The translations under genes and the position numbers were made by a program. From the NCBI GenBank assembly GCA_001414345.1, contig LLCB01000020.1, forward strand, positions 186,001 through 250,000: DNA of 64,000 bases, in the 5' to 3' direction. Every line of letters starts with the position of its first letter. The stretch's first letter is position 1. The stretch comes from Hymenoscyphus infarciens (Eukaryota; Ascomycota; Leotiomycetes; Helotiales; Helotiaceae). Positions 26,181 through 51,987 of this stretch are shown piece after piece. A model generated the notes under the pieces. It worked only from the letters and a program-made list of their open reading frames with translations, was not told the origin of the DNA and searched no databases.

Positions 26181-26402
26181 ATGCCATCCCTCAAAGATTA
26201 TGTCAAGAACTTCCTCTGGAAACGTCGGGCAAGAAAGGGGGAGAGCAGAGAGCCCTTCAAAGACGCTTCAAAGTTCGACGACTTGTTCGTACGAAATTCG
26301 AGTCCTTATAGACGCGACATTAGTCCACCACCTTCGCCTAGGAGTAAGCCGAGAGGTAGGAGGGAGGATTTTGACAATTTGCTTAATGCGAGGTATTGTT
26401 AA
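26181..26402 (+). CDS. Zinc-ribbon cluster member, ribbon-less short form 1
   Basis: 73 residues from the ATG in CGCAAAAATGCC. The basic start MPSLKDYVKNFLWKRRARKG aligns with the first 20 residues of the ribbon-bearing paralogues, but the cysteines are absent. Instead it has PFKDASKFDDLF, shared almost word for word with the next gene, then an SPPPSPRSKPRGRR proline/arginine tail. The last residue is its only Cys. The leader (AGATACACCAACCGC) resembles that of the copies at 30237 and 31516. Function unknown; a positively charged peptide that binds membrane, nucleic acid or another protein is possible. It could also be a decayed copy. Confidence 0.55.
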   Translation: MPSLKDYVKNFLWKRRARKGESREPFKDASKFDDLFVRNSSPYRRDISPPPSPRSKPRGRREDFDNLLNARYC

Positions 26403-26751
26403 ATCTGTGTCATATACGACGACCCCTTCAGTTGTAACCGGGAATTCCATAACGGGAACTTTGATAAATTACATAATACTTTTTTATAAAGGTTTAAATA
26501 AGCCAAAGAAAACCCGAGAAAAAGTGATAGAAGCTGATAAAGAAGAGAAGGAAATTCAAAGTCAAGCCTTCCGAGTAAAAGTCAGCTAAAAGCACTCCTT
26601 TTACAGCCACAAAGAAAAATCAAAACAAAGCCTTTTATTTATAAACAATGCAAACAATCCCATTCTCCAAGAACAGTGACAAAGACAAAACCATACTTAT
26701 AAAGCCATGGCTTCAATATTCCAGTACTGGATTTTTCTGTGAAATATCAAG

Positions 26752-26937
26752 ATGCCATCCTCATATTACAAAAAGCTCCTAGAACGCCGAAAGGCAGAGT
26801 CTCCCCAAGTTGCTTGTACCGGACCCTTTAAAGACGCCTCAAAGTTTGAGGATCTTTTTCAACGAACTAGTACTAAGGTACGTGAAATCATTACCCCTAT
26901 TTCTCCTAGAAGTCAGATACCCGAGGGAGACCTATAA
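26752..26937 (+). CDS. Zinc-ribbon cluster member, ribbon-less short form 2
   Basis: 61 residues beginning MPSSYYKKLLERRKAE. It shares GPFKDASKFEDLFQR and a later ISPRS with the gene 350 bp upstream, so the two are tandem duplicates that have diverged outside this core. One cysteine, no ribbon. The frame ends shortly after the shared part, so this may be a truncated copy. No known domain. Confidence 0.45.
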   Translation: MPSSYYKKLLERRKAESPQVACTGPFKDASKFEDLFQRTSTKVREIITPISPRSQIPEGDL

Positions 26938-27338
26938 AAAGAGACTTCGGGAAGTGTAAAATGAAGCTACGATGTAGTTAAACGTCATGTTAGGAGATAA
27001 GTGGCTGAATACCCTGATCAAGGGGTTTGATTGTTAAGCACGATCATCGGTCTATAACACAAAAATTAATAACACTAGAGTATACTCGATATCCTACTAC
27101 CGGTGTGATAATTTTTGAATTGACCTAAGAAAGGTGACCTAAGGAAATAAGTAATAGAAGTAGACGAGACTTAACCCTTCTATGGGCCACGAACCACGCA
27201 TATGACAGTGGGTAAAACTGGGTAAATTTGGAGGCTCAATTGATTGAATCAACCTCAAGGCAGGATATTGACATACCCATTGTCTTCTCGTGTGCTTTTT
27301 CTGGCTTCAAAATATCCAATATGGGAGCTGTTGTTTTA

Positions 27339-27773
27339 GGGCCTGTTTGGCATGCATATATTTTATTATAAATATATCTGATTTATGCACGAGTACATGG
27401 CCCAAAAGTGCTCGTATATTTTAAATTATATTATAGATTTTTCATAAATATATTACCTTACTGTTTTGCTCGTCATACACATATCAGCATAAACACTCGT
27501 AGAAGGCCCCGACTTAGTGGAGTTTCAAGAATATATACATACATATAAAAGTTAAAGGTCAAGAGGTCAAAAGAGTATATTATTTAATTTTAATAGTACA
27601 CATCTTTATACATATATATTTAAAGGAAGTACGAGCAAAAGTACGTACTATAAAATTTACTAGTTAAAAGCTCGTACTTATCATACTCTACACGCATATA
27701 CTATATATTACTTTGTTATTTTTAGTAGTACACATCTTAAAAAAGTAGGAAAACGTGCGAGCCAAACAGGCCC
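27339..27773. mobile_element. 435-bp MITE, PIF/Harbinger (Tourist) type
   Basis: Terminal inverted repeat GGGCCTGTTTGGC at 27339 and GCCAAACAGGCCC ending 27773, flanked by a TTA direct repeat (27336-27338 and 27774-27776). A 3-bp TWA duplication with a GGGCCTGTTTGG-like end is characteristic of PIF/Harbinger-derived MITEs. The inside is AT-rich with no coding capacity. Confidence 0.85.
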
Positions 27774-28036
27774 TTAAGCGAGCATCACACCTCTGGATGC
27801 GATAACTTCTGCCTCAACACTTCTCTACATTTACTGTTCCACTGCATTCGGCACTTCCTGCCCTAATGGAAACAAGTATCAAGACAAACCGATCCACTCA
27901 CACTAAAACCAGAACATCTGAAACAAAAACTTTGTGGTCCCAGAAACAACCCAAAACAGTCATAGAAAAAGAAACATAATTACCCTTCAAACCCCCCTCT
28001 CCTTCCTCCATCAATCTTGCAACATCAATAACCAAG

Positions 28037-28609
28037 ATGTCTTCCTTCAGATCTTTCGTTAGGAAAATTTTAGGCTTACGGCGAGCTGCTCCTACTCAGA
28101 GGCCATCCTGTCCCAGTTGCGGGGAGCCTAGAGGGGGGTCCGATACATGTAGCCGCTGCGGTGCACGCTATATTATTGTTAGCAACCCTGTTCCTGTATC
28201 GATTCCGAACCTGGGGTCACGCCTAGTCCCAATTTCGGAACTAAATGGAGTTGCGCCACGTCGAGCTCCTCCAGCACGATGTCCAACTCCAACACCCGAG
28301 AATCCCTCCAACCCCAGACCTCCACCCGATGCAGTTTCCCCCGCAGTATCAGCCCCAGATGCCCATTTGGTTCGACTAGCCATCGAAAGATGGGAGACTG
28401 AAGCTGCTGAGGAGGCGGAGGGGAAGGAAGATCCTCATGAGGGCGCATTTGAGAAGACGCAGAAGGCGAAAGAGGGTGAAGTGGAACGAGGAACAGATGA
28501 GCATAAGCGCTTAGGGTTAATAGTGCCTTTGGAGTTCATGGAAGAAGATTACAAGTCAGGTAAGTTCTGTTATCCACCCATCCGTACACACCCAGTCACT
28601 GAGAGGTGA
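28037..28609 (+). CDS. Zinc-ribbon cluster member, 190 aa
   Basis: Starts MSSFRSFVRKILGLRRAAP, the reference version of the family's basic N-terminus. The ribbon at residues 25-41 is C-P-S-C-G-E-P-R, nine residues between the cysteine pairs, then C-S-R-C-G-A. A proline-rich linker (residues 55-115) and an acidic, coiled-coil-prone segment (IERWETEAAEEAEGKED onward) follow. A C4 ribbon of this size binds one zinc in known families, usually as a structural or interaction module. Near the end, TCAGGTAAGT at about 28558 is an excellent splice donor, so the last ~16 residues may be intron and a further exon may exist. Function unknown. The paralogue 500 bp downstream has lost its ATG. Confidence 0.7.
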   Translation: MSSFRSFVRKILGLRRAAPTQRPSCPSCGEPRGGSDTCSRCGARYIIVSNPVPVSIPNLGSRLVPISELNGVAPRRAPPARCPTPTPENPSNPRPPPDAVSPAVSAPDAHLVRLAIERWETEAAEEAEGKEDPHEGAFEKTQKAKEGEVERGTDEHKRLGLIVPLEFMEEDYKSGKFCYPPIRTHPVTER

Positions 28610-29134
28610 AATCCACAGACCCCCAACCCCTATTTTAAAAGGAAAACTAATACATGGAATAGATAATGATTACGTTTAAGGAGAAAGTGATTGAAATGAC
28701 AAGGACTACAAGTAGCTGAGAGAGGTTGTGTTGGTAATCAAAAAGTAGAAATGAAAGATCGCTTCTGCATAACAAGTACATACATATATGCCCCAAAAAT
28801 AGTGTATATTCAAAGAGCAGCTCAATCATTTAGAAGTAGGCTGCAACGGAAAGTACTGAAGTTATTTGTTCTCTTTTTCTGAGCTTTTCCTCAAACTCGT
28901 CATATTAGCATAGCCAAATAATCAAATCAAATACGGAATGAACATAAGTAGAAATTGTTACTTTCAAATATGTAGGTTGTGATCCTCAATCCTTGGTGCC
29001 ACGAAAACAAAACAACACCAAATCCTCTTTATCAAAGGAAAAAAAACAAGCTCAACAATCTCAAAGAAAGAAGCATAACTAAGTGATAAGTTCCAAGCGT
29101 GTTCACACCACACCAGACCATATCATCATTCAAA
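28610..29134. other. Intergenic
   Basis: AT-rich sequence between two paralogues. It may include a 3' exon of the upstream gene if the donor near 28560 is used; no other signal. Confidence 0.5.
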
Positions 29135-29458
29135 AGGCCATCCTTCAGGAATTTTGTAAGAAGGCTTCTGGCCTCACGCCGCGCGGCAAGAGGCACGCAA
29201 ACCCGGCCCATCTGTCCAAACTGTTTACAGCCTAGAGGGAACGCTGATGTATGTAGCAAATGTGACGCCCGCTTTATGTTGCCATATGATCAAACTGGTA
29301 CCCCCACTCCACCTCAAACTGATTTTCGAATCCCACGTAAGCCAGTACCAACTCAAACACCTCTAGTCCCTCTGACAGAGGAGCAAGAGAAACAACGGGA
29401 GGGCTTTGATGTCGCTAGGAAGGAAGCATGGTGGAAGGTGGGTAAGAAAGGTGAGTGA
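29135..29458 (+). pseudogene. Zinc-ribbon paralogue lacking its start codon
   Basis: The frame reads PSFRNFVRRLLASRRAARG, then a ribbon C-P-N-C-L-Q-P-R, nine residues between pairs, C-S-K-C-D, and a proline-rich tail ending WWKVGKKGE. It is clearly the sister of the gene at 28037. At the place where all sisters have ATG before CCATCC, this copy has AGG (29135-29137). Upstream the frame stays open to a stop at 29087 without any ATG, though a GTG occurs at 29099. Either the gene is silenced by this single change, starts at a non-AUG codon, or takes its start from an upstream exon. GTGAGT near its end is a good donor with CATAG about 30 bp on. The body is otherwise intact, which argues for recent loss or hidden use. 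Confidence 0.65.
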
Positions 29459-30236
29459 GTACCCCCACCCCCTGTCATAGCTATGGAAATATCAAGTTGA
29501 CAAGTCCCAAACTCAAATAAAACAATAATCAGACAATGATGTAGAATATAGGACGATGAGATGTAATTGTGATCATGAGGAAGTGTCGACAAGGCAATGA
29601 AACTTGAAATTGGAAGGCTTCGATTGTAAAAAAAGATGAACAATGCGGTTGTGAAGAGACGACAAAGAGTCCAAACTAGCCACAGCAAACAATCCTTGAA
29701 ATGAAGGGAGAGAAAATTAAAAGTTCAAACAAGCAACAACGAATAATCCCTGAAAACGAGACTTTTCTTGATAGAACATTTGTTCCGGTTATCAGAGGAA
29801 GGAAAGTCATGTCTGAATTCAATCCAGATCTCGAAATCCCGACCACGTCACCGCAGAATGTCAAGAATTGAATACGCGTCAAGAGAAAATTGCCCTCATT
29901 TTGCGGCATTTTTATAGACTTAAAAGTGCCGGAAGGAAGAAGAAAAAAAGAGCTATCCATCTCTTCACCATTCAACTTCGATATTTCTCGACGGTTGAAC
30001 GCGCTAAAGGATCTCGAAACAGCTACAAAAAGAAGATAACATAGCAACGCTAAAACCAGAACAGGGGAGAACAAAGCCCCTGTCCCAACCCTAGTCTTCG
30101 GGACAGGAAACAAATCCCAGATAAATATAAACACAAAGTGATAAGGGCACCCGAAAATCCCGCTTCCCCTAAAACCATCAACCGCGATACCAGACACCAA
30201 CATACAACCTCGATACACCACTCATACACCACCACG
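29459..30236. other. Intergenic
   Basis: No coding content. The last 60 bp (ATACCAGACACCAACATAC and following) resemble the leader of the gene at 31516 and mark a shared promoter-proximal duplication. Confidence 0.5.
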
Positions 30237-30713
30237 ATGTATGACAAAAACAACCCCCCCTTTTACCTCGCCAAAACCCCTTCGAACACAAGAGGAGAAC
30301 CAAAAGAAAGGGAGGAGAGCCCCTTCCTCACAAGAGCCAAGAGCACCTATAAACGGGCAAACGACGCTCTCAACAGGAGAGCAGAACCAGGAGACACCGC
30401 GCATCTCCTTACTAAATTCAAAAGCGCTTATAACCGGGGAAATGACGCTCTTAACAGAATACAACCACTCAAGCCAGAACACGAGCCCCAGGTCCTCCTC
30501 GCAAGAGCCAAGAGCGGTTTGAAAGGAGCAGCCTCCTCCGCTCTCAACCGGAGAGGAGATAAACCAGCAACGAAGAACCCTCTTCCACCGTCTGAAGATC
30601 CGACCCCACCTGCAGGGCCTGCTCCAGCTTCGAGATTGGAAGATGAGGGCTCCTCGTACTCTAGACGCGAATCTGAGGGGTTTGACGAGGACAGAGGGAG
30701 TTTTGACACATAG
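30237..30713 (+). CDS. Cluster member with three ALNRR repeats, no ribbon
   Basis: 158 residues from ATG 30237 (MYDKNNPPFYLAK). Three consecutive units follow the pattern LLxxxKSxxxxxxxALNRR at about residues 30-50, 53-73 and 82-103: FLTRAKSTYKRANDALNRR, LLTKFKSAYNRGNDALNR and LLARAKSGLKGAASSALNRR. Each would form a basic amphipathic helix. A proline-rich, then acidic C-terminus ends with ESEGFDEDRGSFDT. The ALNRR-type unit (SLLNRRAE) and the EGFDE motif both recur in the gene at 31516, which also has the ribbon, so the two genes are related although this one lacks cysteines entirely. Basic helical repeats suggest lipid, nucleic-acid or protein binding, but no function is assigned. Confidence 0.65.
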   Translation: MYDKNNPPFYLAKTPSNTRGEPKEREESPFLTRAKSTYKRANDALNRRAEPGDTAHLLTKFKSAYNRGNDALNRIQPLKPEHEPQVLLARAKSGLKGAASSALNRRGDKPATKNPLPPSEDPTPPAGPAPASRLEDEGSSYSRRESEGFDEDRGSFDT

Positions 30714-30977
30714 AACAAACTCTCAAAAAATACCTACCGGTGAGTAGTTGTACCTCCTAGAAGCGAGTCAGAACTTGATGACCCCCACTCACACCCCTAG
30801 TAAAAACACCAATCGAACAATAATTTGGGATAGAAAAGAAGATATAATATACTGCAATTGTGGTAAAGTAGTAACCACCAGGTGACAATATCTAAACAAC
30901 GGCGAGGTCAAAAGTTGGTTAAAAAGATAGCGACAAAGAGACAAAACAACCCGTGGAGGAAGAAGGGACAAACAGAA

Positions 30978-31163
30978 ATGCCAATGATAATACCACTAAC
31001 CAATCATAAAGAGTTAAGAGAGTTACTTGTCATCCTTTTGCTCCCGAGTTCATCAACGGAAAAGTTGAACCCAGAATTCGGAGCCCCAAGTCCCCCTAGA
31101 TCGCCAAAAAACATCTTCGAGAAATCAGGAGATAAACCAGCTAGCCAGCCTACGGTATATTAG
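30978..31163 (+). pseudogene. Probable decayed fragment of an ALNRR-type paralogue
   Basis: The frame contains APSPPRSPKNIFEKSGDKPASQP. GATAAACCAGC and its translation GDKPA recur from the gene at 30237 (RRGDKPATK), and SPPRSP echoes the ribbon-less copies. Nothing else aligns and the start region (MPMIIPLTNHKE) is unlike the family. Best read as a remnant. Confidence 0.3.
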
Positions 31164-31515
31164 CGTCGAAGAACAAACAGAGCCGAACCGGAAAAAAAAA
31201 AGAAAGATCTCCGAGAGCCACAAACTCAAAACTGCATCTATAAATTTCTCACTCTAAGACTACTAGTAAGTACTCACCAGAACAGGTATAAAAAAAAAAC
31301 AAAAAAACAAGGGTAATATACTAATCTAAACCACGAGCACCAGAACACCAACAAAACAAAACTTCACGAGTTTAACTTAGTCTTTAGACAATCGGAAACA
31401 CGTCAGAGACAGGAATAATCAAGTGCCATAACATCCACAAGCATTCCCAAACTTCCCGCTCCCATCTCCCGTGATATCAGACACCCACTACATACTATTT
31501 AGATACGCCATCAAA

Positions 31516-32325
31516 ATGCCATCCTTCAAAGCCCACTCTACGTTCGTCACCAAAGCAAAAGCTACAGCGCGGCACGCAAGAACCAACAGTCTCGACGACT
31601 CGGCCACAACACCTTCTTCCCCCGAAACCCCATCAACAAGAGCGACATGCACAGCAAGCAAAGCAAACTCCCTTCTCAACCGAAGAGCAGAAGACCAGCC
31701 AGCAGAAAACCCACCCTCCCCCAAATGTCCTATTTGCTCCAAAATATTGCCCGGAAAAGGAAACCAGTGTAAGGACTGTGGGGATATCGCTCCTCCAGAT
31801 GTCCACAAGGAACTTCCTCAAGTTCCAAGGAAAGCACTTCCACCGCCGGGAAGGAAATCGGCATCTTCTCCGACGGGAACTGATACACCCCCGCCCCCAT
31901 CTCGTCCGAGTCCTCTGAGGAGAGTGGCGATTACGGGGGGAGAAGTTCATGCTGCAAGGGAGTCTTTGGGGGAGGAAGACTTGGAGGGGGATAGAAGACA
32001 CAGGACGAGCTCTCGGAGAATGGGGTCGACTCCGTCACTACCATCGACTCCTCGTGTTCATCGCCATGCCGCAAATAAGATTACCCCAGCTGGAATAGAT
32101 TGGGAAGTTGAAAGGGAGTATGTAGAGAGGAAATATCCACGAGGAGAAAGAAGACGCAGAAGGGATTTCCAGGGGGTTGTAGGTGGGATGTTGGAGGGTG
32201 CTACAACTAGACCAGTGAGAGAGGAGGATGAGGGTTTTGATGAGATTGGACCGTTCGTCTCGCGCGGGACTTCGAAGCGTGGTCCTACTTATGAGGTGGG
32301 AGCTTGGGTTTATGAGCGGGGGTGA
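31516..32325 (+). CDS. Zinc-ribbon cluster member, long form (269 aa)
   Basis: The ATG at 31516 follows a leader similar to that at 30237; an in-frame codon upstream is not an ATG in good context. The N-terminus MPSFKAHSTFVTKAKATARHARTN is basic; SLLNRRAE links it to the ALNRR gene. The ribbon at about residues 73-91 is C-P-I-C, ten residues including LPGKG, then C-K-D-C-G-D. A long proline/serine-rich and arginine-rich disordered region follows, with RGERRRRRDF near the end and a REEDEGFDEIGPF motif shared with the 30237 product. It is the longest member and combines both subfamily signatures, so it may be closest to the ancestral form. No enzymatic motif. Stop at 32325 is followed by AT-rich sequence. 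Confidence 0.7.
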   Translation: MPSFKAHSTFVTKAKATARHARTNSLDDSATTPSSPETPSTRATCTASKANSLLNRRAEDQPAENPPSPKCPICSKILPGKGNQCKDCGDIAPPDVHKELPQVPRKALPPPGRKSASSPTGTDTPPPPSRPSPLRRVAITGGEVHAARESLGEEDLEGDRRHRTSSRRMGSTPSLPSTPRVHRHAANKITPAGIDWEVEREYVERKYPRGERRRRRDFQGVVGGMLEGATTRPVREEDEGFDEIGPFVSRGTSKRGPTYEVGAWVYERG

Positions 32326-34987: not shown

Positions 34988-37395
34988 ATGTCTACCACTA
35001 CTGGTGCCACCACTGGAATCCACAATGCCAACAGAGACATTCGGAACCACTATCTCTTTGAAATAGCCACAGAGGTCGCCAACCGAGGTATGTCGCACCA
35101 GAACCGTTGAGACTGGCGCCTGCACAATGAGACAATGTACTGACCAACATGACCTGGCAAAGTGGGCGGAATCTACTCAGTCATCAAATCCAAAGCTCCA
35201 GTGACCACTGCTGAATATGGCGATCGATACTGTCTTATTGGGCCCCTAAACAAACAATCCGTAAGTTGCTCTTGCTTATGCTCATGCACCAAGTCACAGG
35301 CCATGGGCTAACCCACCCTCGTAGGCCGCGGTCGAGGTAGAAGCTCTCACGCCCACCAACCCCCACCTTGCCAAGACGATCGAGTCGATGGAAGAGAGAG
35401 GAATTGGCATTGTATATGGTCGATGGCTGATTGAGGGTGCTCCCCGCGTTCTGTTAATTGATACCAAGACTGCCTACAGATTCTTGGACGAATGGAAGGC
35501 CGATTTATGGAACACAGCAGGAATCCCATCTCCTCCTGGGGATGACGAGACTAATGAAGCCGTGGTGTTTGGTTATCTCGTTGCATGGTTCTTGGGAGAG
35601 GTAATTGCCCAAAATTTAATGAAATCTCAGCAGCGGCTAACTGTTATAGTTTGTCTATCACGAAAAGGAACACGCCGTTATTGCCCACTTCCACGAATGG
35701 CTCTCCGGTGTAGCATTACCTCTATGCAAGAAGCGAAGAATCGATGTTACCACCATCTTCACTACCCACGCAACTCTTCTCGGAAGATACCTCTGCGCTG
35801 GTTCGGTCGATTTCTACAATAACCTACAATACTTTGATGTGGACTCGGAAGCTGGAAAGCGTGGTATCTACCACCGATATTGCATTGAGCGTGCTTCGGC
35901 ACATTCTTGTGATGTCTTCACGACAGTATCCCATATCACTGCGTACGAGAGTGAACATCTCTTGAAGCGCAAACCAGATGGTGTCCTTCCAAACGGTCTA
36001 AATGTTACAAAATTCTCCGCCATGCACGAGTTCCAGAATCTGCACCAGCAATCGAAAGAGAAGATCCACGATTTCGTTCGAGGTCATTTCTATGGCCACA
36101 ACGACTTTGATCCTGAAAACACCCTCTACTTCTTCACTGCCGGTAGATATGAATACAGAAATAAGGGTGTCGACATGTTTATAGAATCTTTGGCACGGCT
36201 GAACCACCGATTAAAGTCTGCCGGCTCCAAGATCACCATTGTTGCCTTCATCATCATGCCAGCTCAAACACAATCGCTGACCGTGGAAGCATTGAAGGGA
36301 CAGGCAGTCATCAAATCTCTGCGGGATACAGTTGATGTAATTGAGCGTGGCGTTGGAAAGCGGATTTTCGAGCGTGCTTTGAAGTGGCATGATGGAGATG
36401 CTATGCCAGATGAGAAAGACCTCATTACCAGCCAGGACCGAATTCTTCTCCGAAGAAGACTGTTTGCAATGAAGAGACATGGACTTCCTCCTATTGTCAC
36501 TCACAACATGGCCAATGATTCGGAAGATCCAATTCTCAACCAAATCCGACGAGTCCAACTTTTCAACCACCCCTCAGATCGAGTCAAGATTGTCTTCCAC
36601 CCAGAATTCTTAAACTCCGCCAACCCAGTTCTACCAATGGATTACGACGACTTCGTTCGAGGAACTCATCTCGGTGTTTTCTCCTCTTACTATGAACCTT
36701 GGGGATACACGCCAGCAGAGTGTACAGTTATGGGTGTTCCAAGTATCACAACCAATCTTTCTGGATTTGGTTGTTATATGGAGGAGCTTATTGAAAACTC
36801 TACTGACTACGGTATCTACATTGTCGATCGTCGTATGAAGGGTGTCGATGATTCCGTCAACCAGCTCACTTCATACATGTTCGATTTCGCCAACAAGTCA
36901 AGACGTCAACGTATCAACCAAAGAAATCGTACCGAGCGACTGAGCGATCTATTGGATTGGAAGCGAATGGGCATGGAGTATGTCAAGGCACGCCAACTCG
37001 CCCTCCGAAGAGCATACCCAGCATCATTCGAGGGAGAGGAGGACGACGATTTCATCCCTGGTGTGGAACAAAAGATCTCGAGACCATTCTCTGTTCCTGG
37101 TTCTCCCAGAGACCGAAGTGGCATGATGACACCAGGAGATTTCGCCAGTCTGCAAGAAGGCCGGGAAGGATTGAGCACGGAGGATTATGTTGCATGGAAG
37201 TTGCCGTAAGTTTTCTTTTTCCTGGACGAGAATTGATTAGGGCATTACTAATCATTTCTCGTTTTCTTGTTATTTAGTGAGGAGGAAGACCCTGATGAGT
37301 ACCCATTTCCGCTTACTTTGAGATCGAAGAAGGCTACGGGCCCGACTAGTCCTGCTGAGCCTATCACCAACGGTGATAGGAACGGTGGATCATAA
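34988..37395 (+). CDS. gsy1: Glycogen [starch] synthase
   Basis: Exons 34988-35087, 35163-35260, 35325-35600, 35650-37205 and 37278-37395 give 715 residues, close to the fungal norm of about 700. Introns have GTATGT/GTAAGT/GTAATT donors; intron 2 has a GGGCTAACCC branch site. The N-terminal [12 protein letters not shown] is the sugar-nucleotide loop of GT3 synthases. The E-x7-E catalytic signature is E507 to E515 (EPWGYTPAE). The arginine cluster ([16 protein letters not shown]) is the glucose-6-phosphate sensor. The C-terminal tail has Ser/Thr-Pro sites ([16 protein letters not shown]) like those phosphorylated to inhibit yeast Gsy2. It adds glucose from UDP-glucose to glycogen in the cytosol. 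It sits exactly between the two arms of the zinc-ribbon cluster, with no evident functional link. Confidence 0.96.
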
Positions 37396-39182: not shown

Positions 39183-39584
39183 TTAACCCCCAGGAGTTTT
39201 TCGCGCACGAAAACTTTTATTATCCCTTCCTTGGTCCGTAGCAGCCTCCCATGCGAAGAGCGTTGGAGGAGGTGCTTTCAGATCCAGCGATGTAACTCCT
39301 CTCACTTCTCTCACTTCATTCCCATCTTCCCACACTTCCTCCTCTCTCCATCCTTTCTCACTCCTCTCTTCACTTGCAACCTTCGATAGAAAACTTGGAG
39401 AAGATGGTGTATGCGGAAGTGGTTTATTCAGATCTTTGGCTGTTATCATAAAGTGAACGCCGCATCTCGCACAGGGGTTTCTTGTGCGGGGTGTGTGGCA
39501 GATGGGACAGAGATTGGGGTTTGAGTTTGGGTATGCCTTACGTTGGGAGATGAGTTTTTTGATGCGGACTTTTAGGGTTGGCAT
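39183..39584 (-). CDS. Zinc-ribbon cluster member, right arm (133 aa)
   Basis: First copy of the right arm, on the minus strand. MPTLKVRIKKLISQRKAYPN is the basic start. The ribbon C-P-I-C-H-T-P-R, eight residues between pairs, C-A-R-C-G is followed by VHFMITAKDLNKPLP, matching ADFMITAEELHRLLP of the gene at 41843, so these two form a subfamily. The rest is acidic (GWREEEVWEDGNEVREV) and low in complexity. The CT-rich leader ends CCCCCAGAATG. Zinc binding is inferred from the four cysteines; function unknown. Confidence 0.65.
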   Translation of the reverse strand: MPTLKVRIKKLISQRKAYPNSNPNLCPICHTPRTRNPCARCGVHFMITAKDLNKPLPHTPSSPSFLSKVASEERSEKGWREEEVWEDGNEVREVRGVTSLDLKAPPPTLFAWEAATDQGRDNKSFRARKTPGG

Positions 39585-40396
39585 TCTGGGGGTAGTGGTT
39601 GGGTGGTTGTGATGATATGGCGAAGAAGAGAGGAGAATGAGAGGGCGGAGAGGGGAGTTATGTTTTTGTTTTGTTTTGTTTTGTTGTCTGAAACGAGTGA
39701 AAAGAGGGGGTTAGAATTCGAGTCTTGTTTTAATACTTGTCTCGTGGTGGGGTATAGTAGTATAGAAAAGTAGCGAAGAAAAATTAAAAGAGAGATTTAA
39801 GTCGAGTAATTCCTTTTATCTAAAGCTATTAATATATACAGCTGAGAACACTTCCACTTTCACAGAATACCCTGATAACCGCTAATCTCCTCCATCTAAC
39901 TCTTATTTAAACCCTTCATCAATATCTAGTTGCATAGACATCCATCTTTCATATACTAATAAAGTATATGTCGATGTGGAAACTAGAGAGAAAAATAGAA
40001 AACGTTTCGCGAACGAGTGCCATTTTCATATTTCTTGAGATTTCTGCTCGTTCCTTTTCTTTCCATGTGGGTTCTCTGGGAGTCATACTGGTAGTATATT
40101 TGAAATCTGATTCTTACCTCAACCCTCGGGATAATGAAAGCGGGATAATGAAAGGGGAATGATTATTGTTTTTTGAGTCACAGAATAGCCGAGAGAATTG
40201 AATTCTGAAACTTTGTGAGATAACTCACAAAAGGTAAGCATGAACGGGCACGGGCCCATCAGCACCTTTAGTACCTTATTTTTAACTCACCAGCTTATCG
40301 CTATCTTCTATGGACAAATTCAACTATTTTAAACTATAATTACATTTATTTTTAGGGGTGGGGTGTTCGACGCCTTTCTCCACAGTCGACTGACTC
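39585..40396. other. Intergenic
   Basis: TTTTG units at 39663-39684 then AT-rich unique sequence. No coding signal that I trust. Confidence 0.5.
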
Positions 40397-40663
40397 TCAT
40401 CCTCTCTTCTCTTTTCCACTTGGGTCCCCAATAATAAAGCAATTAGTCCCTAGATGAGGACCCGCCATCGGTGGACCTGGAGGAGGAGTAATGTACGAAC
40501 CGCAGTGCGGACAAACTCTACTCTTGCCACAGATGATAGGTCCGCATTTTGGACAGAAAGCTCTCTGCTCTCCTTCGGTTAGAGCAATTAGCGATTCTCT
40601 AGCCTTTCGGGCTAGAGACCTCACTTTGATTACTAGTTTTGCTGTTAGTGAGAATGAATGCAT
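40397..40663 (-). CDS. Zinc-ribbon cluster member, small form (88 aa)
   Basis: The N-terminal 30 residues are basic and amphipathic (AKLVIKVRSLARKARESL). The ribbon is C-P-K-C-G, ten residues between pairs with an extra Cys (IICGK), then C-P-H-C-G-S. The short tail is glycine/proline-rich (TPPPGPPMAGPHLG). RSLARKARE matches ILARRAREA of the gene at 46198, placing both in one subfamily. Good ATG context (CCCACAATGC). No function assigned. Confidence 0.65.
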   Translation of the reverse strand: MHSFSLTAKLVIKVRSLARKARESLIALTEGEQRAFCPKCGPIICGKSRVCPHCGSYITPPPGPPMAGPHLGTNCFIIGDPSGKEKRG

Positions 40664-41842
40664 TGTGGGCTATGTAAACTTGGTTTGTGTGATTTGGGTT
40701 GTTTGGTTGGGTGTGGTGTTGGCTGTTGTTAAGGTTTATGGAGGGAAGAATTAAAGAGGGATTTTTGAGAGTTTTGTATAAATAGGGATCGGCAGCTGTT
40801 CAGCAGGGTGTTAATTGTGTTATATCAAAGTTTGTTTTTAATCTTCAATTGCTATTATTAACTTCGCATTGGTTGTTTGTAGGAACAGAAAATGAGAGGG
40901 TAATGAGAACAAAGGTCTTGTTGAAAAGGAATGATACGAACACTCTTCTGTACCCGTGATTACGAGTTCATCCAGAATGGCCTTGGAAGCATCTTATTTA
41001 TCTCTTCTCCAGGACTAACTATATATTTCTTTCCGAATTATCTCTTATTTTCACAAGTTCTTTTAACATTGGTATTCTAGAAAACTTATCAAGAAATGTA
41101 CATTATTATGCGCCCATGCTCTGGCCTTTTTACATTGATCCTGTAACTCCTCAAGTTCTTGATGCACTTCTAGCTGAAAGTTCGAGCAGAGTAACCTCCA
41201 ATTCGTGACGGGAAGTCGAAAGTTCTTGGGTATCTTCAAGCTCTCTTTTTGTATTATTGAGTTGTTGACCGACAGCCTCCTTCTTGTGTGAAAAGGGCGT
41301 TTTGTTTGGCTGTTTGTTTTAAGTATTAGGCTCGTAATGTTCTGTGTTTGCCTGGCGGCATGAGCCCTTGGAGAAGGGGCGAGAAGGGGGGAGGTCATTC
41401 GATGTAGTGAGGAGGTCTTCGAAAACACTGGTTGTGGGAAATCGGGGGATTAGGAGGATAAAGATGAGAGGGGTGAGAGCTCTATTTGGCTCTATCGTTC
41501 TTCATTATCTGAACCCAGAGCTAGTGTTCTTGGATGATGTTTAGAATTTTGAGTTCGTATGTTGGGTGGTTGTTGCGGGAACGACACGTGACCACACTAG
41601 TGGACCTGTATATATTCCTGGCTTCTGCCAGCCTTTACTCTTCAGACGTTTATTACCACACCACATAAGTGATTACTTTCACGTATTTCACCGGGCCCAG
41701 CCATAAGCTCCTGATCTGTGATCTATCACTTATGCTACAGTGGTTTTGAGACCGGTGATTTGACATTTAGTTTCAGCTGGACTCGCATCTAAGAAAGCAT
41801 GGAAGTATAGGGAATTGTTTCAAAGGGTCGGTCGTCTGGAGT
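40664..41842. other. Intergenic
   Basis: Includes an open frame on the minus strand (ATG 41398 to 41063, 111 codons) with a short coiled-coil-like end (HQELEELQDQCKKARAW) but no family signature. It is more likely chance than gene. Confidence 0.45.
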
Positions 41843-42340
41843 TTATTCTCCCATATTACCTCCCCTTTTATCATTCTCCTTCTCCAGAGCAAGAGCCGCC
41901 TCATAAGAATCCAACTTATGAGGCGCAACCTCCTTGATCGTCGCTCGAACAGCATCTTCAAAGGCACCCTGTCCTGCTTGAAAACGAACAGCTGATTGTT
42001 CAATTTCAACGGCACGATCGGAGGAACCTTGATCTCGATCTGTCCCCCAATTAATCTCTCTCCATTGAATTTCAACATGTCCAGATGGGTGTTGGGGAAG
42101 GGGCTTATTGAGATTTGGAGCTTGCTTACTTCTCGGGTCTTTTGGAGGTGGAGTAGGGGCGGAAGTGTTCCTAAGTGGGAGCAATCTATGTAGCTCTTCG
42201 GCCGTGATCATAAAGTCTGCGCCGCATTTTGAACATGGGTTTGTCAACCTGGGCTCGTGACAGAAGGGACATTGACCTGGTCCTTTTGCCTCGCTGCCAA
42301 AGGTTAGGGCTTTTTTGAAGAACGAATTTAGTGACGGCAT
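41843..42340 (-). CDS. Zinc-ribbon cluster member, right arm (165 aa)
   Basis: MPSLNSFFKKALTFGSEAKG, then ribbon C-P-F-C-H-E-P-R, eight residues between pairs, C-S-K-C-G-A, then DFMITAEELHRLLP. Sister of the gene at 39183. The middle is proline/lysine-rich (PTPPPKDPRSKQAPNLNKPLPQHP) and the C-terminal third looks helical (AFEDAVRATIKEVAPHKLDSYEAALALEKEN). The leader (AACACACCAAGAATG) fits the family. Acidic C-terminal helices also occur in the 28037 product. Function unknown; gene reality is well supported by the family comparison. Confidence 0.7.
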   Translation of the reverse strand: MPSLNSFFKKALTFGSEAKGPGQCPFCHEPRLTNPCSKCGADFMITAEELHRLLPLRNTSAPTPPPKDPRSKQAPNLNKPLPQHPSGHVEIQWREINWGTDRDQGSSDRAVEIEQSAVRFQAGQGAFEDAVRATIKEVAPHKLDSYEAALALEKENDKRGGNMGE

Positions 42341-42450
42341 TCTTGGTGTGTTCAGGTTAAGGTGGAAAAGTGGGCGAGTGGAGAGATTTAGTGTCTTTGT
42401 TAATAGGTTTGTTTAGGTTGTTGTTTTAGTTGTTTACCAATTATCTTGTT

Positions 42451-42666: not shown

Positions 42667-43051
42667 ATTTCTCCTTTGGTTAATTAGAGATTGTTGAAGC
42701 TGCTTTGAAGTTTGGAGTTATATAGTATACTACATCTGAAGCGAGGAGATTACGAGAAAGGCGGTAAATGATGAATGTTGATTAAATGGAATGGCTGTTG
42801 AAAGAACAGGGTATTGTAAACTCGTTTAATCGTATCAGCTTTCAAGTTACTTTGTTTCAAGTTTTAAACAGGAGTCAAAGACTCGGGGGAATAAACCTTC
42901 TTTATCTAATTTTTATTACATCGCACTGAATTCATTGCTCTCGGTCACTTTAGATATAAAATAGCTCATACTACTGTTGTTTTGGGGGTTTGATATTGGG
43001 CTTTTGCGAAAAAAGGTTGGCGGCCAAATTTTTTTTAGAAGTCAAGCAATA

Positions 43052-43486
43052 CAGCGAGTTGCGAGTTAAGCTTCCCTTTTGACGATTTTTTTTAAACCGT
43101 ACGTTTTTAGAAAAATTCTTATTTCCTAGACACTCTTTCCCTCTTTACATAATAACAACGTATGTTATTATATCTTTAAGAATAACTAATAAGAGCTCTA
43201 TACCTCCTTTTATACTCTATAAGCCTTTTAGGAAGAAAACAAATACTTTTATATATATTTAAATTTATAAGAATATGAAAATTTTTCTTATTAATTTCTA
43301 AGAATTAACTATTATTAAGTTTATTCTTATTATAAGGAGGTATAAGAAGATATAGCGGTTCTTCTAGCTAGGTCTTATAACTTAAAGAGTACTTTAGTTT
43401 TCTGCTTTCAAGGAGAAAAGAAAATTTCTAAAAACGCACGGTTTATAAAATATCGTCAAAAGGGAAGCTTAACTCGCAGCTCACTA
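43052..43486. mobile_element. 435-bp MITE with ~70-bp TIRs, TA duplication
   Basis: The left end is CAGCGAGTTGCGAGTTAAGC, continuing CTTCCCTTTTGACGAT. The right end is its complement down to CTCACTA, flanked by TA at 43050-43051 and 43487-43488. The arms agree for about 70 bp, including an AAACCGTRCGTTTTTAGAAA stretch. The inside is AT-rich without coding frames. The TA target and terminal motif are shared with the element at 47939 but the subterminal sequence differs. Confidence 0.85.
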
Positions 43487-43711
43487 TATAACAATTTCTA
43501 ACTTCACTAGGTGAATCTCTCTATCTTTTGTAAAGTGTATGAAATTAAGCTTATGGTACGGTGTCCCAAATTAGATCCTAAAAAAAGAAAACCAATGGTA
43601 AGAATCTGGAATCGCTGGGGCTTAAGAAGAGATATTAATGATATTACAACTTTAGAAGACGAGTCAATCTTTATTAATTGTCCTTTCTAGAAAAGGAAAT
43701 ACACAGCTTTA

Positions 43712-44533
43712 CTACGCGGAGCACAGAGACCACCCATATACGTCAAAAATACCACCCTCATGAGGAACAGTGTCAGATACACCGTCTGCGATATTTTTCT
43801 GCTCCTTCTGCGGATCTTCCGCTATCACCTCCTTCCATTTCTCCTTCTCCTCAGTGGTAAGTCTTCTCTCTTCCTCTTCAGAAATCTCCTCGTTAACCAC
43901 TTCCCCACCATCAAGAACCGGTACAGAGTCATAATCTCCTCTCTTCATCTGAAGTAGAGGATCAAAAACCCCACCCATATGAGGAAAAATGTCTGACACG
44001 AGATCTACAAAGTTTTCCAACTCCTTCTGCTGATCTTCAACTATCACCTCCTTCCATTTCCCCTTCTCTTCAGCTGTAAACCTTCTCTCTTCTTTAGGGT
44101 TCCCCTCATCAACCGCCTCTCCATCATAAAGAACCGGATGAAGTTCAACAGCCACCTCATCCTCTTGTTCCATAGCCACCAAGACCTCCTGCATCATCTC
44201 CATACCCCGCTCCCTGCAAATCCTCTCACTTGTCTCCTTAGCTTTTTCCGTAGCGGCGAAAGAGTCATACTGACCAAATACAGCTTCAAATTCCTCAGAA
44301 TTTTCCATGGGCTCAGGATCTGTTGGTGGCAGTTCTACCATGATTCTTGGGGAGAAGTAGGGGATGTTAGAAGCCCATTTGTAAGAAACTCGATCTTTTT
44401 TGTTAAAACCTGGGAGGGTGGAGAGGGCTGCTTGGGTCAGTTGGTCGGTTGGGTGATTATCGAGGGAGTCTGAACTGGGGGTGGTGATGTTTGTGGAAGG
44501 CATTTCTTGCTCTGAATAGTTAAGGGTGGACAT
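43712..44533 (-). CDS. Acidic protein with a tandem internal duplication (273 aa)
   Basis: ATG 44533, alternative ATG 44503 (MPSTNITT), the latter resembling the family start. No cysteine ribbon. About 60 residues are duplicated in tandem: VDEGNPKEERRFTAEEKGKW and VNEEISEEEERRLTTEEKEK, each followed by KEVIxEDxQKE, VSDxxPHxGG and FD. At DNA level the units lie near 43745-43930 and 43955-44140, so the duplication is recent. Strongly acidic and probably disordered with helical patches. It lies on the same strand as the right arm, between two ribbon genes, and may be an unrelated passenger. Function unknown. Confidence 0.6.
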   Translation of the reverse strand: MSTLNYSEQEMPSTNITTPSSDSLDNHPTDQLTQAALSTLPGFNKKDRVSYKWASNIPYFSPRIMVELPPTDPEPMENSEEFEAVFGQYDSFAATEKAKETSERICRERGMEMMQEVLVAMEQEDEVAVELHPVLYDGEAVDEGNPKEERRFTAEEKGKWKEVIVEDQQKELENFVDLVSDIFPHMGGVFDPLLQMKRGDYDSVPVLDGGEVVNEEISEEEERRLTTEEKEKWKEVIAEDPQKEQKNIADGVSDTVPHEGGIFDVYGWSLCSA

Positions 44534-45384
44534 TTCGATGGTGAATTTTCCGGTCGTGGGTGCTAGATTTAGTTAGGAGTTAGTGATCTCGACTGGCATT
44601 AAGCTTGGAGAGGGGAAACGGGGTTTGTATAAACGAGGATTGTTATTGTTTTTCTCTTTCTTAATAAAGAGTAGAATTATAGAATAAAGGGTTAAAATTA
44701 CAATAGTATTATACTTCCTTTGTCGGGTTGTTCAACATCTTGGCTCTGACGTGAGTTTACCAAGGGATGTTGGTATTCATGGGTTACCTAGAAAGAGACG
44801 CCCTAGAATTCGTGCTATTTGTAGGTTAGCTGTAGAGATGTAACAACATAAAAGATATGTGTGATATTTGTATGCTAGTTAGAAATAACTACGTGGAATA
44901 GTGTATACCATTTGTAGGTAGCCCAAAAAAAAGAGATGTTTACCAATCCCCTTGTTTTATGAGTCTTCTTAAAGGGAACTCATGGAAGCACACGGTGGTG
45001 GTGGGGTAACATTGAGAAATGCAAGCACTTGAAAAACAGCACGAAGATAAGGGTGACAGCCGTTCTTTCTCTTTTCTTTTTTGAACCCAGTGTTTATTGA
45101 TTCCTAGAATAGAATGGTGGCCCTTCGCGCTAGGTCCCAACCCATACCTTGTCGTTTCCCTAGTACATGTTGGTTGCTAACTTCTCCTTGACATTTTTAC
45201 ACGGTATAATATTAGCTTATGTATTATATGGACTCATAACATGACATATTTTAAAATAAAAGATTTTAGGAAAAACGAAAAAAAGGTATTTATTGATGCT
45301 TACGAGAGAAAAGTTGGGGGGGGGGGCTTGATTAAGTAAATGGTATTGTTTCAGGAATACAAAGAGAACAGCAGCTCATATGCA
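44534..45384. other. Intergenic
   Basis: AT-rich; a G run lies at 45317-45327. No gene supported. Confidence 0.5.
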
Positions 45385-45594
45385 CTATCGTTTCTTTGTC
45401 TTTTTGCGCTTCTTTTTAACCTTGATCCAAAGTGGTTTTGGCTGAGTTGCTGTATAACCGCAAAAGCCACACGATTTACTGCCAGCTACCCAAGGGTCTC
45501 CACAGGTTGGACAAAGTGGTTTCCGTCCTGCCAGAGCAGCTTTCGTCTTTCGGACACGTTCTTTGAAACGAACGGTGATATTCGGGCTGTTCAT
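45385..45594 (-). CDS. Zinc-ribbon cluster member, small form (69 aa)
   Basis: MNSPNITVRFKERVRKTKAA, then ribbon C-P-T-C-G-D-P-W, ten residues between pairs, C-G-F-C-G-Y, then a lysine tail (KKKRKKTKKR). The PW variant of the motif is shared with the gene at 46198. Almost the whole protein is the basic helix plus ribbon, showing the minimal unit of the family. The terminal lysine cluster would serve as a nuclear or nucleolar signal or bind nucleic acid; this is inference. Confidence 0.65.
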   Translation of the reverse strand: MNSPNITVRFKERVRKTKAALAGRKPLCPTCGDPWVAGSKSCGFCGYTATQPKPLWIKVKKKRKKTKKR

Positions 45595-46197
45595 TCTGCT
45601 TGCAGGTTATGGTTTGCGATTATTAATGAGTAAGTGCATTTCAAAGAGTGAATTGAAGGGGTATTTATGTTTTCCTCTTAATTCTGTTTTTGGATGTTTA
45701 GGCGGACGGTTTTCAGGTTTCGAGGGTCCACGATGGGGAATTGTTTTTGGTAGTGTTTAGGTTTAGTGTTAATTACCTGATTTGGCTAATTAATAGTCGA
45801 AGTCGAAGTTTATTTAAGAACACGGTGATAATGACTATGAACAATACATTCTAGTTTAATAGGGAAAAGAAAAATAATAGTTTGATGAAAGACAGCACTT
45901 CAGAGAATACAATTGTCTTTTTGATTCTCAATTTTCTTTGTCTTTGTTCCGGTTTAGTAGTCAAAGACTCGTCTAAAACAGTCACGCATCTGTCACTTTG
46001 TCACTTCATCACAATAACGCTCCTTTTCTTCTAGGAAATTTTTGAATGTGTTATACAATTATATTGATAGGGGGGTTTGGGGTTTAGAATGTCACGACTC
46101 ATCGAGTCATCTCAAGCTCACGTTCCCAAGCTTTCGAGTAGACTAACCCTCCCCGAGCTTTCAATCATCATCGAGTCTCTCGTCTATTTATCTTGGC
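45595..46197. other. Intergenic
   Basis: No recognisable content. Confidence 0.5.
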
Positions 46198-46440
46198 TTA
46201 CCGGTGTTTGTCCACTCCCCAAACATCAGGATCACCAGGCTTGCGAGGCGGATCGATCATGATCGGTCGTGGGTGGAGCTCTGTTCGTCCACAGATGGGG
46301 CAAACAGAACTTCCAAGGGGCCACGGCTCTCCGCAGGTTTGGCAGCATGGCCGCCTCCCTGTTCGAGATGCTACTGCTTCTCGGGCTCTTCGGGCTAGAA
46401 TCCTTAAGTGGATGTGGAACTTTAAAAGTGCAATCGTCAT
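46198..46440 (-). CDS. Zinc-ribbon cluster member, small form (80 aa)
   Basis: Basic start HIHLRILARRAREAVASRTG, then ribbon C-Q-T-C-G-E-P-W, ten residues between pairs, C-P-I-C-G-R, and a proline-rich tail (HPRPIMIDPPRKPGDPD). Closest to the copies at 45385 (PW motif) and 40397 (helix and CPxCG second knuckle). The leader reads CAACCTACACCATG. No function assigned. Confidence 0.65.
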   Translation of the reverse strand: MTIALLKFHIHLRILARRAREAVASRTGRRPCCQTCGEPWPLGSSVCPICGRTELHPRPIMIDPPRKPGDPDVWGVDKHR

Positions 46441-47051
46441 GGTGTAGGTTGGTGTTGGGTCTCGGGTTTGAAGGGGAGAGGAACTTGGAGGGTAGATTGG
46501 GGAGTACTATGGTGGTGATTTAGAACTGTTTATTGCTGTTGAGAAGTTTTTTTGAACAAAAAAATGGTTCTGTTTTTTCTGGGAGGAATGTTGTTTAGTA
46601 TTTGGGGCACACCATCTCTGTTTTATTGTTGACAGCTAACAAGTCTGGAAACCTTGTCCAAAACTAAAAATCTGTGAATAATAACACCTAGAGAGGGACT
46701 CGGGGTTTTAGTCAAAAAGATCCAGTCATGGACTCGATCACGTATTCCTTTATTTAAAACAGTCCAGTCTCTAGGCCCAAATATGCATCTATCCTAGGGT
46801 AATTTTAATACTGCTCTGCTTCAAATTCACTATACTAAATCATACATGTTTCTCGCAGACCGATCAGACTTAAATTTTTTCAATCACTCTTTCACAATTT
46901 CACTACTAGTCTATGGCAATTTTAAATATTCAATATTACGATTGTACTTTAAGGGAAAGGGGGCCCGGGGTTTACCTCTCATTTTTTGCCTCTCCTCTTC
47001 TTCTTCTATACCTAGTCTACTGTCACTCTAGTATGTAGTTTTATCTACTAA
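46441..47051. other. Intergenic
   Basis: No gene recognised; moderately AT-rich. Confidence 0.5.
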
Positions 47052-47495
47052 CTAGTGTTCAAGTTTGCCACAAAACCTCAAGATCCAGAGGAATTTGAGG
47101 TGGTGGAAGAGGAGAAATAGAACAAACATAAGCGCTATCGTTTTTCCGCTGGAAAAGAAGCCCAAAGAAGGACGGGTATCTCTCTCTCTCCGACGCGCTT
47201 TATTTTCGATAGGCGGTCTGAGAGTTAGGGCCAGCGGACGAGGAGTAGTAACGTCTCTCAAAGCAGGACTCTTGGGAGGCAGAGGCATCGAAAGTACCTC
47301 TGAGATAGCAGTGTCACTCATGGATATCGGCTCCTTCAAATCGCACTTTGCGCATATGTTGTTAGTCATTGGTTGCTCACCATTCTGACACAGAGGTCTC
47401 TTGGACTTGAGTGTCTTCCTTACTACGGCCCTGACTCTTCGAGTTCGTGCTCGGGCTCTGGTGACTAGATTCGTGGTGTTCGTAAAGGGTGTCAT
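47052..47495 (-). CDS. Diverged cluster member, broken ribbon plus C-terminal hydrophobic segment
   Basis: I place the start at ATG 47495 (MTPFTNTTNLVTRARARTRR) because it aligns with the family start; the frame also opens at 47576. The basic helix is intact, but the ribbon reads C-Q-N-G-E-Q-P with the second cysteine missing (a one-codon loss against C-Q-T-C-G-E-P), followed by an intact C-A-K-C-D. After a proline-rich middle the end contains TIALMFVLFLLFHH, long and hydrophobic enough for a membrane segment, found in no other member. With one knuckle lost, ordinary zinc binding is unlikely. It is either a tail-anchored derivative or a decaying gene. Confidence 0.5.
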   Translation of the reverse strand: MTPFTNTTNLVTRARARTRRVRAVVRKTLKSKRPLCQNGEQPMTNNICAKCDLKEPISMSDTAISEVLSMPLPPKSPALRDVTTPRPLALTLRPPIENKARRRERDTRPSLGFFSSGKTIALMFVLFLLFHHLKFLWILRFCGKLEH

Positions 47496-47938
47496 GGTAA
47501 TAGCTTGTAATAGTATCACTTTGGAGGAAGAATACTTCTCTTGGGGGGAATTTTGAGACATATTTACGCTTTTCACTTACAATTGTCCAGGAAAGGTGTT
47601 TAGTTGTTCCTTGAGTTTAACAAGCTGTTTAACTCTTGGCGTCAATATTTACCTTGTCTGTAGTTGTATTTAGCTAAGTTGTCTTTCAGTGGCCTTCGAA
47701 ACTTGAAAAAGAGAAGTATGACTTTGTTTAGCGTCACAAAATTGTTTACACTGTTACTAATTAAATACTTCTCAAAACTTATTTTTTCCCCACAGGAAAC
47801 TTGATTGAAATCTTTTATACACCAATCACGTAATTTCGAATAGTCTTCACTTTAATTACCACTGTTTACTTCATATAACTTCTAGAATTTCATTCCAGAC
47901 AAATCGAAACCTAGATTGTTTCCGAACTCTTCAGAATA
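47496..47938. other. Intergenic
   Basis: AT-rich spacer between the diverged paralogue and the MITE at 47939. Nothing else seen. Confidence 0.5.
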
Positions 47939-48471
47939 CAGTGAGTTACGAGTTAAGCTTGAATTTGCCCACTTTTTTTATAATCCGAGCTTTTTTTTTC
48001 AAAGCTTTGTCCCTCTTTTCTTTAGAAGACAGAAAATAAAAGTACTCTAAAAGAGACGAGGCTAGCTAGAAAGAAGCGCTATATCTAATTATCTCTCTTC
48101 TATATTACTTATTAATTTAAAGTAAGTATAATAAATATAAACTAAAAAATAGATAATTCTTAAAAAAAAAAACCCTTTTTTTGAAAATTTTTCACTAACT
48201 CTATAAGGTTAATAAGGTCGATAAGGTACGCCAAGACCTTATAAAATTAAGACAGATATAAAATTGTCTGTTTTTGTTATATAAAGTTTATAGAGTAATA
48301 GAGGATATATAGAGCTCTCGTTTTCTGTTATCTAGAGTATACTAATATATATTATTATTAATAAATAGGCGAAAGAGTGCCTAAAAAAGGGGGAAATCAA
48401 GGACTTTTTCAAAAAGCTCAGATCATAAAAAAAGTGGGCAAATTCAAGCTTAACTCGCAACGATAACACTA
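47939..48471. mobile_element. ~530-bp MITE sharing its tip with the 43052 element
   Basis: The left end is TA then CAGTGAGTTACGAGTTAAGC; the right arm (about 48394-48460) is complementary through GAATTTGCCCACTTTTTTTA. The tip CAGYGAGTTRCGAGTTAAGC matches the 43052 element while the rest differs, so both were probably moved by one transposase. The right tip has a few extra bases before CACTA, so that border is uncertain by about 10 bp. Confidence 0.75.
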
Positions 48472-48651
48472 ACGGTTAAGCTCTAAACCTATAGAGTTAA
48501 CCATAACTCTATCACATTTCTTTCAACAATCACATATAGCAAATGATGTCAACTATCCAAAGTTCATCTATTTGATCATTAATATTTATTTACTCTAAGT
48601 GCGCAAAAAAAAAAGGCTGGAGTACTTGGTTAGTCCACAGTGATCCAAGAA

Positions 48652-48864
48652 CTACTCGTGCCTACCTTTAACAGCATCTATTGGATTCTTTCTATAGTGT
48701 CCCATAAGTTCGCGATACTTCTTTTCTACCTCCTCATTGCAGGAAAGACAACAAGTGGGATTAAAAGCCGGTGCTTCCCTCCCACAAAATCGACAAGTGG
48801 GTTTTTTCTTACGGCCCAAGCGCGTCAAAAGTCTGCTGATGTTTCCTAGGGTATGGAATTTCAT
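48652..48864 (-). CDS. Zinc-ribbon cluster member, rightmost copy (70 aa)
   Basis: MKFHTLGNISRLLTRLGRKKK then a ribbon C-R-F-C-G-R-E-A-P, ten to eleven residues between pairs, C-C-L-S-C-N (five cysteines in all), then a short charged helix (EEVEKKYRELMGHYRK). It lacks the proline-rich tail. It ends the right arm; beyond lies the transposon block. The helix after the ribbon is unlike other members. Confidence 0.6.
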   Translation of the reverse strand: MKFHTLGNISRLLTRLGRKKKPTCRFCGREAPAFNPTCCLSCNEEVEKKYRELMGHYRKNPIDAVKGRHE

Positions 48865-51956: not shown

Positions 51957-51987
51957 AAGTATACTTACCTTATATACTAACTCTCTT

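Follow-up and report, generated by a model that had tools for sequence, protein, structure and literature searches.

A two-armed cluster of small zinc-ribbon-type proteins around a glycogen synthase gene in Hymenoscyphus infarciens

Single-ribbon micro-proteins are reported to be little studied (PMC6562870). The genome of Haloferax volcanii encodes numerous small proteins that bear C(P)xCG knuckles (PMC11241148, PMC6562870), the closest functional kind that we found in print. For 12 of 16 of them, in-frame deletion altered a trait in one or more of the conditions tested (PMC6562870), and five of 14 purified C(P)XCG proteins were free of zinc, so that the motif alone does not show zinc binding (PMC11241148). 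Here we describe small proteins with comparable knuckles encoded in a 64,000-nucleotide window, the whole stretch of DNA analyzed (positions 186001-250000 of contig LLCB01000020.1, here C114), of the 65.6-Mb, 742-contig genome of Hymenoscyphus infarciens. Whereas the Haloferax proteins are archaeal and shorter than 70 amino acids (aa), the fungal family has a basic N-terminus and often a longer tail. The NCBIfam model HVO_2753 matches one of the 14 ribbon-bearing members, at E 0.087.

Other described proteins resemble parts of this layout. bL32, which belongs to the ribosome and is not known to form tandem families or to carry variable tails, joins a basic segment to a four-cysteine ribbon of similar spacing, and the profile match spans both. 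The family nevertheless scores below the Pfam cut-off (at best 17.5 against 21.3 bits, for member 40397, members being called by their lowest window coordinate, and Ribosomal_L32p, PF01783); this model matches two of the 14 members at E<=0.1 (best E 0.0049), which leaves the family outside it. In Nop10, a four-cysteine ribbon of similar spacing is followed by a proline-containing stretch, but that ribbon stands at the start of the chain, the matches setting in at residues 4-8, and is not preceded by a basic helix. The double zinc ribbon and zinc-ribbon domains PF12773, PF18912, PF13240 and PF13248 have the knuckle sequence CPxCG...CxxCG in common with the family, which differs in having one ribbon and a shared N-terminus; the best E values among the 14 members are 0.001 to 0.01, under the cut-off in every case where one is shown. 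DZR matches four of the 14 members (best E 0.001) and DZR_2 three (best E 0.0018); with a single ribbon, and with scores below the cut-off wherever one is shown, the proteins do not belong among the double zinc ribbons. Lineage-restricted effector families of fungi are likewise small, clustered, repeat-flanked and orphan, but here the core is constrained, the cysteines follow a ribbon pattern and no signal peptide is seen by eye. A preliminary description of this DNA knew of no fungal family with such a layout; we found none in our searches of the open-access literature, and the family appears to be undescribed in the databases and open-access papers searched.

We are confident that the window encodes a real, constrained gene family, and sequence comparison indicates that it is one family with homology beyond the ribbon. 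Taken whole, the best explanation is an old, apparently lineage-restricted family of small proteins acting as intracellular adaptors, a reading that we consider about evenly poised between right and wrong.

The cluster and its members

A six-frame search of the whole window found the pattern C-x2-C-x6-20-C-x2-C in nine frames, all within 28.1-48.8 kb. They lie at 28109, 29213 and 31726 on the plus strand and at 48795, 46344, 45513, 42271, 40555 and 39509 on the minus strand. Between 26001 and 49000, there are nine occurrences with a spacer of x6-14, whereas 200 dinucleotide shuffles contain 0.115 on average and never more than three. The spacing proposed earlier, C-x2-C-x8-11-C-x2-C, is borne out by the nine frames in the pocket at 26-49 kb, and the two-armed arrangement is real: members of the left arm are all on the plus strand and those of the right arm all on the minus strand, with glycogen synthase between. 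The family is clustered in these two arms and occurs in at least three other genomic places. Its members in the window, with the synthase, are as follows.

26181..26402, plus strand: 73-aa frame without ribbon, a paralogue of 26752 and weakly linked to the ribbon family
26752..26937, plus strand: ribbon-less 61-aa frame, paralogue of 26181 only (pairwise shuffles)
28037..28609, plus strand: ribbon protein, 190-aa frame, with a candidate splice donor near its end (by eye)
29135..29458, plus strand: ribbon frame with AGG at the start-codon site, probable decayed copy (frame inspection)
30237..30713, plus strand: ribbon-less 158-aa frame with three internal repeats, kin of 31516 (shuffles, repeat search)
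31516..32325, plus strand: ribbon protein, 269 aa, its N-terminus like that of the family and its tail long (pattern, pairwise comparison)
35388..37209, plus strand: two of the exon frames of glycogen synthase, between the arms (PF05693, E 2e-206)
39183..39584, minus strand: ribbon protein of 133 aa (pattern, ratio of nonsynonymous to synonymous rates, dN/dS)
40397..40663, minus strand: ribbon protein of 88 aa, predicted helix at residues 3-30 and then the ribbon; the query that finds members on other contigs
41843..42340, minus strand: ribbon protein of 165 aa with predicted tail helices at 109-138 and 140-160; counterpart P0001 in a relative, at 80% identity
45385..45594, minus strand: ribbon protein of 69 aa with Lys/Arg-rich tail (pattern, composition)
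46198..46440, minus strand: ribbon protein of 80 aa (pattern)
47052..47495, minus strand: 147-aa member with three of the four ribbon cysteines and a hydrophobic stretch near the C-terminus (by eye); counterpart P0003 in the relative
48652..48864, minus strand: ribbon protein of 70 aa, the most divergent (pattern, pairwise comparison, tree)

Some details of the preliminary description stood only in part. Nine of its ten ribbon copies have four cysteines, but 47052 lacks one. The motif GxP(R/W), put forward as general, keeps P(R/W) at the site in six of ten copies, but its leading glycine, judged by eye, in 28037, 45385 and 46198 only. An ALNRR-type unit is seen in 30237 (ALNRR) and 31516 (LLNRR); three 35-nt repeats within the former frame (30325-30530, plus strand) adjoin such units. 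Sequences resembling splice donors (GTAAGT/GTGAGT) were noticed by eye where the 28037 and 29135 frames end (28560-28700 and 29450-29560). Perhaps these two genes have a last intron in common; a splice donor and last exon shared by the two is an impression gained by eye and not used as evidence.

Kinship, constraint and copies elsewhere

When the residues before the first cysteine were compared among the 14 ribbon frames, 31 of 91 pairs were similar at p<=0.01, against about one expected. Since the ribbon was not included, the likeness belongs to the N-termini themselves; among the tails, eight of 78 pairs were alike. Similar ribbons on unrelated N-termini, the outcome named beforehand as telling against a family, did not occur. 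31516 joins the family through its alignments with 28037, 39183, 40397, 41843 and the member on contig C731 (see below), each with a score reached by none of 300 shuffles, and 48652 is weakly placed (best partner 46198, 1/300). As for the ribbon-less relatives claimed in the left arm, 30237 is tied in through 31516 (0/300; 1/300 with 41843), but 26181 and 26752 are at most weakly tied: they pair with each other, 26752 reaches nothing else in the 300-shuffle comparison, and 26181 reaches 29135 (0/300) and 41843 (3/300) through short alignments. The tree (63 columns, 31516 left out) drew a warning from its builder of long branches meeting; eight of its 12 inner forks are open, and 48652 forms a very long branch. 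Its one starred fork (98/93) joins 28037, 29135, 39183 and 41843 with P0001. The subfamilies are therefore arm-specific only in part, for this sole starred fork spans both arms and members also lie on other contigs.

The aligned cores of these paralogues point to age and constraint. Sixteen pairs were tried with the NG86 method, two of which were saturated. In all 14 computable pairs dN was below dS, and in 13 dS exceeded 1 (range 0.93 to 3.8; examples of dN/dS are 0.44/1.6, 0.50/3.8, 0.60/2.1, 0.38/1.3 and 0.42/0.93), although rates on such short stretches are rough. On these values the copies are old and constrained, and the proposal that the family is rapidly duplicating is not upheld. Constrained cores speak mildly against an arms race; for the effector, conflict or regulatory role first suggested, the evidence is otherwise scant in either direction. 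As effectors, the proteins would be secreted by a plant-associated fungus or delivered into its host, and their genes would occupy a compartment flanked by repeats. The proteins are indeed small, apparently lineage-restricted and clustered, and they adjoin an AT-rich block resembling the product of repeat-induced point mutation (RIP) and remains of mobile elements. However, dN is below dS in the cores; diversifying selection, frequent though not obligatory in secreted effectors, was found in none of the 14 pairs; the part before the ribbon is basic in all 14 frames (net charge +2 to +11), with no signal-like hydrophobic stretch by eye; and free CxxC ribbons typically occur inside cells. We consider effectors quite unlikely.

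Four further members lie on other contigs: two in tandem on C1 (812.3 and 813.4 kb), one on C731 (11.7 kb) and one on C338 (11.0 kb). They were found with 40397 as query in its own genome (E 3.5e-10, 3.6e-10, 9.8e-8 and 1.2e-6), share the layout and all have two CxxC knuckles at ribbon spacing; the matches start at query residue 1 in three and at residue 2 in the C731 member. The total of 17 frames, 14 with the ribbon and three without, is a lower bound on copy number, ten members having served as own-genome queries (26181, 28037, 31516, 40397, 41843, 45385, 46198, both C1 members and the C338 member) and 26752, 29135, 30237, 39183, 47052, 48652 and the C731 member not. A scan with a nine-member profile covered 204 kb of C114 (window included), 60 kb of C140 and small loci; in the C114 and C140 stretches it gave no other match with E below 0.08. 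Seven further matches (E 0.084 to 0.86) and weaker ones up to E 9.9 were discarded as noise, one of which (E 1.8, a 32-aa frame on C140) carries the CxxC-CxxC pattern. Outside the window, CxxC-x6-14-CxxC has six other matches in the scanned sequence, two of them MYND-finger-like by eye. Genome matches on C140 (E 0.02) and C151 (E 0.6) were rejected, as they have no ribbon.

Among 5.8 billion predicted proteins, counterparts came from a relative that is known from its proteins alone. The 41843 product finds P0001 (80% identity, 282 bits, 164 positions of which four are gapped) and also P0002, which is 118 aa long and has its start within the corresponding stretch. With a 14-member profile P0003 is found as well; it matches 47052 without gaps at 79% identity over 147 aa. 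P0001 and P0003 are each listed on a contig of 35,966 bp, presumably the same one, which from that length alone would make them a conserved neighbor pair. The other 17 of this profile's 19 matches all score lower and were set aside: the seven inspected have another layout, and ten were judged by their generic ribbon domains. A five-member profile gave a single match, at E 0.32. Lineage specificity, as first proposed, is thus borne out as far as one protein collection shows, and we provisionally regard the family as lineage-restricted.

A further shared feature lies beyond the coding frames. On the sense strand, CCCC(N0-12)CCCC occurs within 200 bases 3' of the stop in nine of the 17 family frames and in none of 69 controls, which are frames of at least 150 aa and not annotated genes; random 200-base stretches carry it in 3.7% of cases. 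The corresponding p-value, 5e-8, is too generous because the pattern was chosen after the flanks had been seen. Upstream, the tract is found in 0/17 family and 3/69 control frames. Within 150 bases, a G-tract shows no excess (0/17 against 8/69), and the looser patterns CCCC and CCCCC, found in 12/17 against 16/69 and in 9/17 against 7/69, respectively, discriminate less sharply. Besides two of the four members on other contigs, the following have the tract.

28620..28630, plus strand: C-rich tract of 28037
29462..29472, plus strand: C-rich tract of 29135
30782..30797, plus strand: C-rich tract of 30237
40355..40363, minus strand: C-rich tract of 40397
45316..45326, minus strand: C-rich tract of 45385
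46070..46082, minus strand: C-rich tract of 46198
46959..46970, minus strand: C-rich tract of 47052

This distribution suggests that the tract, like the N-terminus, links the dispersed copies to the cluster, and that whole genes including their 3' ends were duplicated. The tract may be a common 3'-end or mRNA control element.

Several results weigh against an old, constrained family of working genes. Probable losses affect three of the 14 ribbon frames. In 29135, AGG replaces the ATG of its paralogues and the ribbon is not preceded by any in-frame ATG, so that translation as such is improbable; in the C731 member, ATA takes the place of the ATG found in the others; and 47052 has glycine at the second-cysteine site, whereas P0003 retains all four cysteines. 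Part of the family may therefore be decaying. YN00 gave no rates for any of the 16 pairs, one of the 14 NG86 pairs (26181-28037) lacks a significant alignment, and codon usage fails to set the family frames apart in the genome. The hydrophobic moment of the N-terminus exceeds that of its shuffled versions (p<=0.05) in only three of 14 ribbon frames. Structural confidence is modest, a Foldseek search with the 40397 model gave no match at E<=0.001, and the sequence profile also matches rubrerythrin, polymerase and TRIM21 chains. The lossy copies and uninformative codon usage, together with flanking repeats and weak, single-member matches to transposase-type zinc fingers (Zn_ribbon_ISL3, E 0.008; Cas12f1-like_TNB, E 0.0058), would suit chance or mobile-element-derived frames without function. 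Against this stand the shuffle control, dN below dS and long frames that are alike in the relative at 79-80%; moreover, the transposase matches cover the ribbons alone, and generic ribbon families match more members. Such an origin is highly improbable.

Structural likeness and a possible adaptor role

AlphaFold2 models the 40397 product as its N-terminal helix followed by a short hairpin at the ribbon (mean predicted local distance difference test score, pLDDT, 67). In the 41843 model (mean pLDDT 61), confidence is 72-87 over residues 121-160 and lower before; by eye, the two tail helices fall in the stretch most alike in P0001 and P0002. In Pfam, ten window proteins have no match above cut-off, and P0001 and P0003 have none at E<=0.01. 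Among the remaining members, E reaches at best 0.00075 against Pfam (a Peptidase_C74 match of one member) and 0.00011 against NCBIfam, in comparisons whose cut-offs are not shown. Of the solved chains, the sequence profile comes closest to Nop10 (E 3e-6, over the ribbon part) and bL32 (E 4e-5, over both helix and ribbon), then to L37Ae and L37; these have ribbons of RNA-protein machines, and rubrerythrin and other ribbons rank lower. These matches raise the possibility of mitochondrial or nucleolar RNA-protein factors, in which the basic helix would act as an import presequence or as an arm that binds RNA, and the ribbon would be a clip of the bL32 or Nop10 kind; the scarcity of acidic residues before the ribbon (0 to 3 in the 14 frames) fits this too. 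Yet many of the 200 Protein Data Bank sequences that match at E<=10 are unrelated ribbons, no chain is named mitochondrial among the 60 of these listed, and the L32 scores fall short as given above. With such assorted chains matched, a ribbon gives no specific clue to the partner. We think RNA-protein factors unlikely.

We favor small intracellular adaptors, although this role, taken by itself, is a guess and a rather doubtful one. The basic N-terminal helix would dock on an acidic partner, which might be RNA, the face of a membrane or a receptor for import into an organelle. The ribbon, which we infer to bind zinc, would hold one partner as a small, rigid clip, and the choice of location and partners would fall to the variable tail. 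The tails indeed differ in type, from the hydrophobic stretch of 47052 and the predicted helical pair of 41843 to the Lys/Arg-rich end of 45385 and proline-rich tails in others. A more daring version, and something of a long shot, is a co-regulated adaptor set in which clustered and dispersed copies combine a shared basic targeting helix and ribbon with interchangeable tails (membrane anchor, helical pair, basic end) under the family-specific C-rich 3' element. Were it true, a single mRNA-level switch would control adaptors sent to different places in the cell.

Surroundings and significance

The cluster lies, as first described, in a transposon-rich pocket, with terminal-inverted-repeat elements, a dispersed repeat and an AT-rich RIP-like block. 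Two related elements lie in the right arm (43049-43489 and 47945-48461; terminal inverted repeats of 82 nt at 87% and 51 nt at 94%); the left arm holds one more element, of a different type (27335-27777; 22 nt at 86%). All three resemble miniature inverted-repeat transposable elements. Behind 41843, a repeat of about 170 bp (41555-41765, minus strand) belongs to a dispersed group with at least 41 genomic places at 82-100% identity. One copy lies between the C1 pair, and a similar stretch follows the second C1 gene (by eye). In size the repeat is like a short interspersed nuclear element; Rfam, at gathering cut-offs, has no match in the window. Beside the right arm, 50001-58000 is AT-rich (GC 22-25%, composite RIP index 1.4-1.7) and probably a RIP-mutated repeat block. 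The other neighboring frames are of ordinary fungal type (a Ulp1-type protease, a cyclin and an Rsc7/Swp82 subunit, by Pfam). Inside the right arm, a 273-aa frame (43712-44533, minus strand) has an internal 131-nt repeat at 79% identity and no Pfam match at E<=0.01.

Clustering, apparent lineage restriction, some broken copies and one hydrophobic stretch would also fit selfish or conflict genes of the spore-killer or incompatibility type, kept by antagonism. The cores with dN below dS argue otherwise, as does the lack of an NLR or HET domain among the eight window frames scanned (E<=0.01), and we hold this explanation to be very unlikely.

If the constrained family is merely one more restricted family, its interest is modest, zinc ribbons being common. 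Small genes are easily overlooked in annotation, and here more than ten related frames share one layout, with the core constrained. If they are working genes, they would make a convenient collection for exploring the work of small zinc ribbons in fungi, with the C-rich tract as a concrete regulatory handle.

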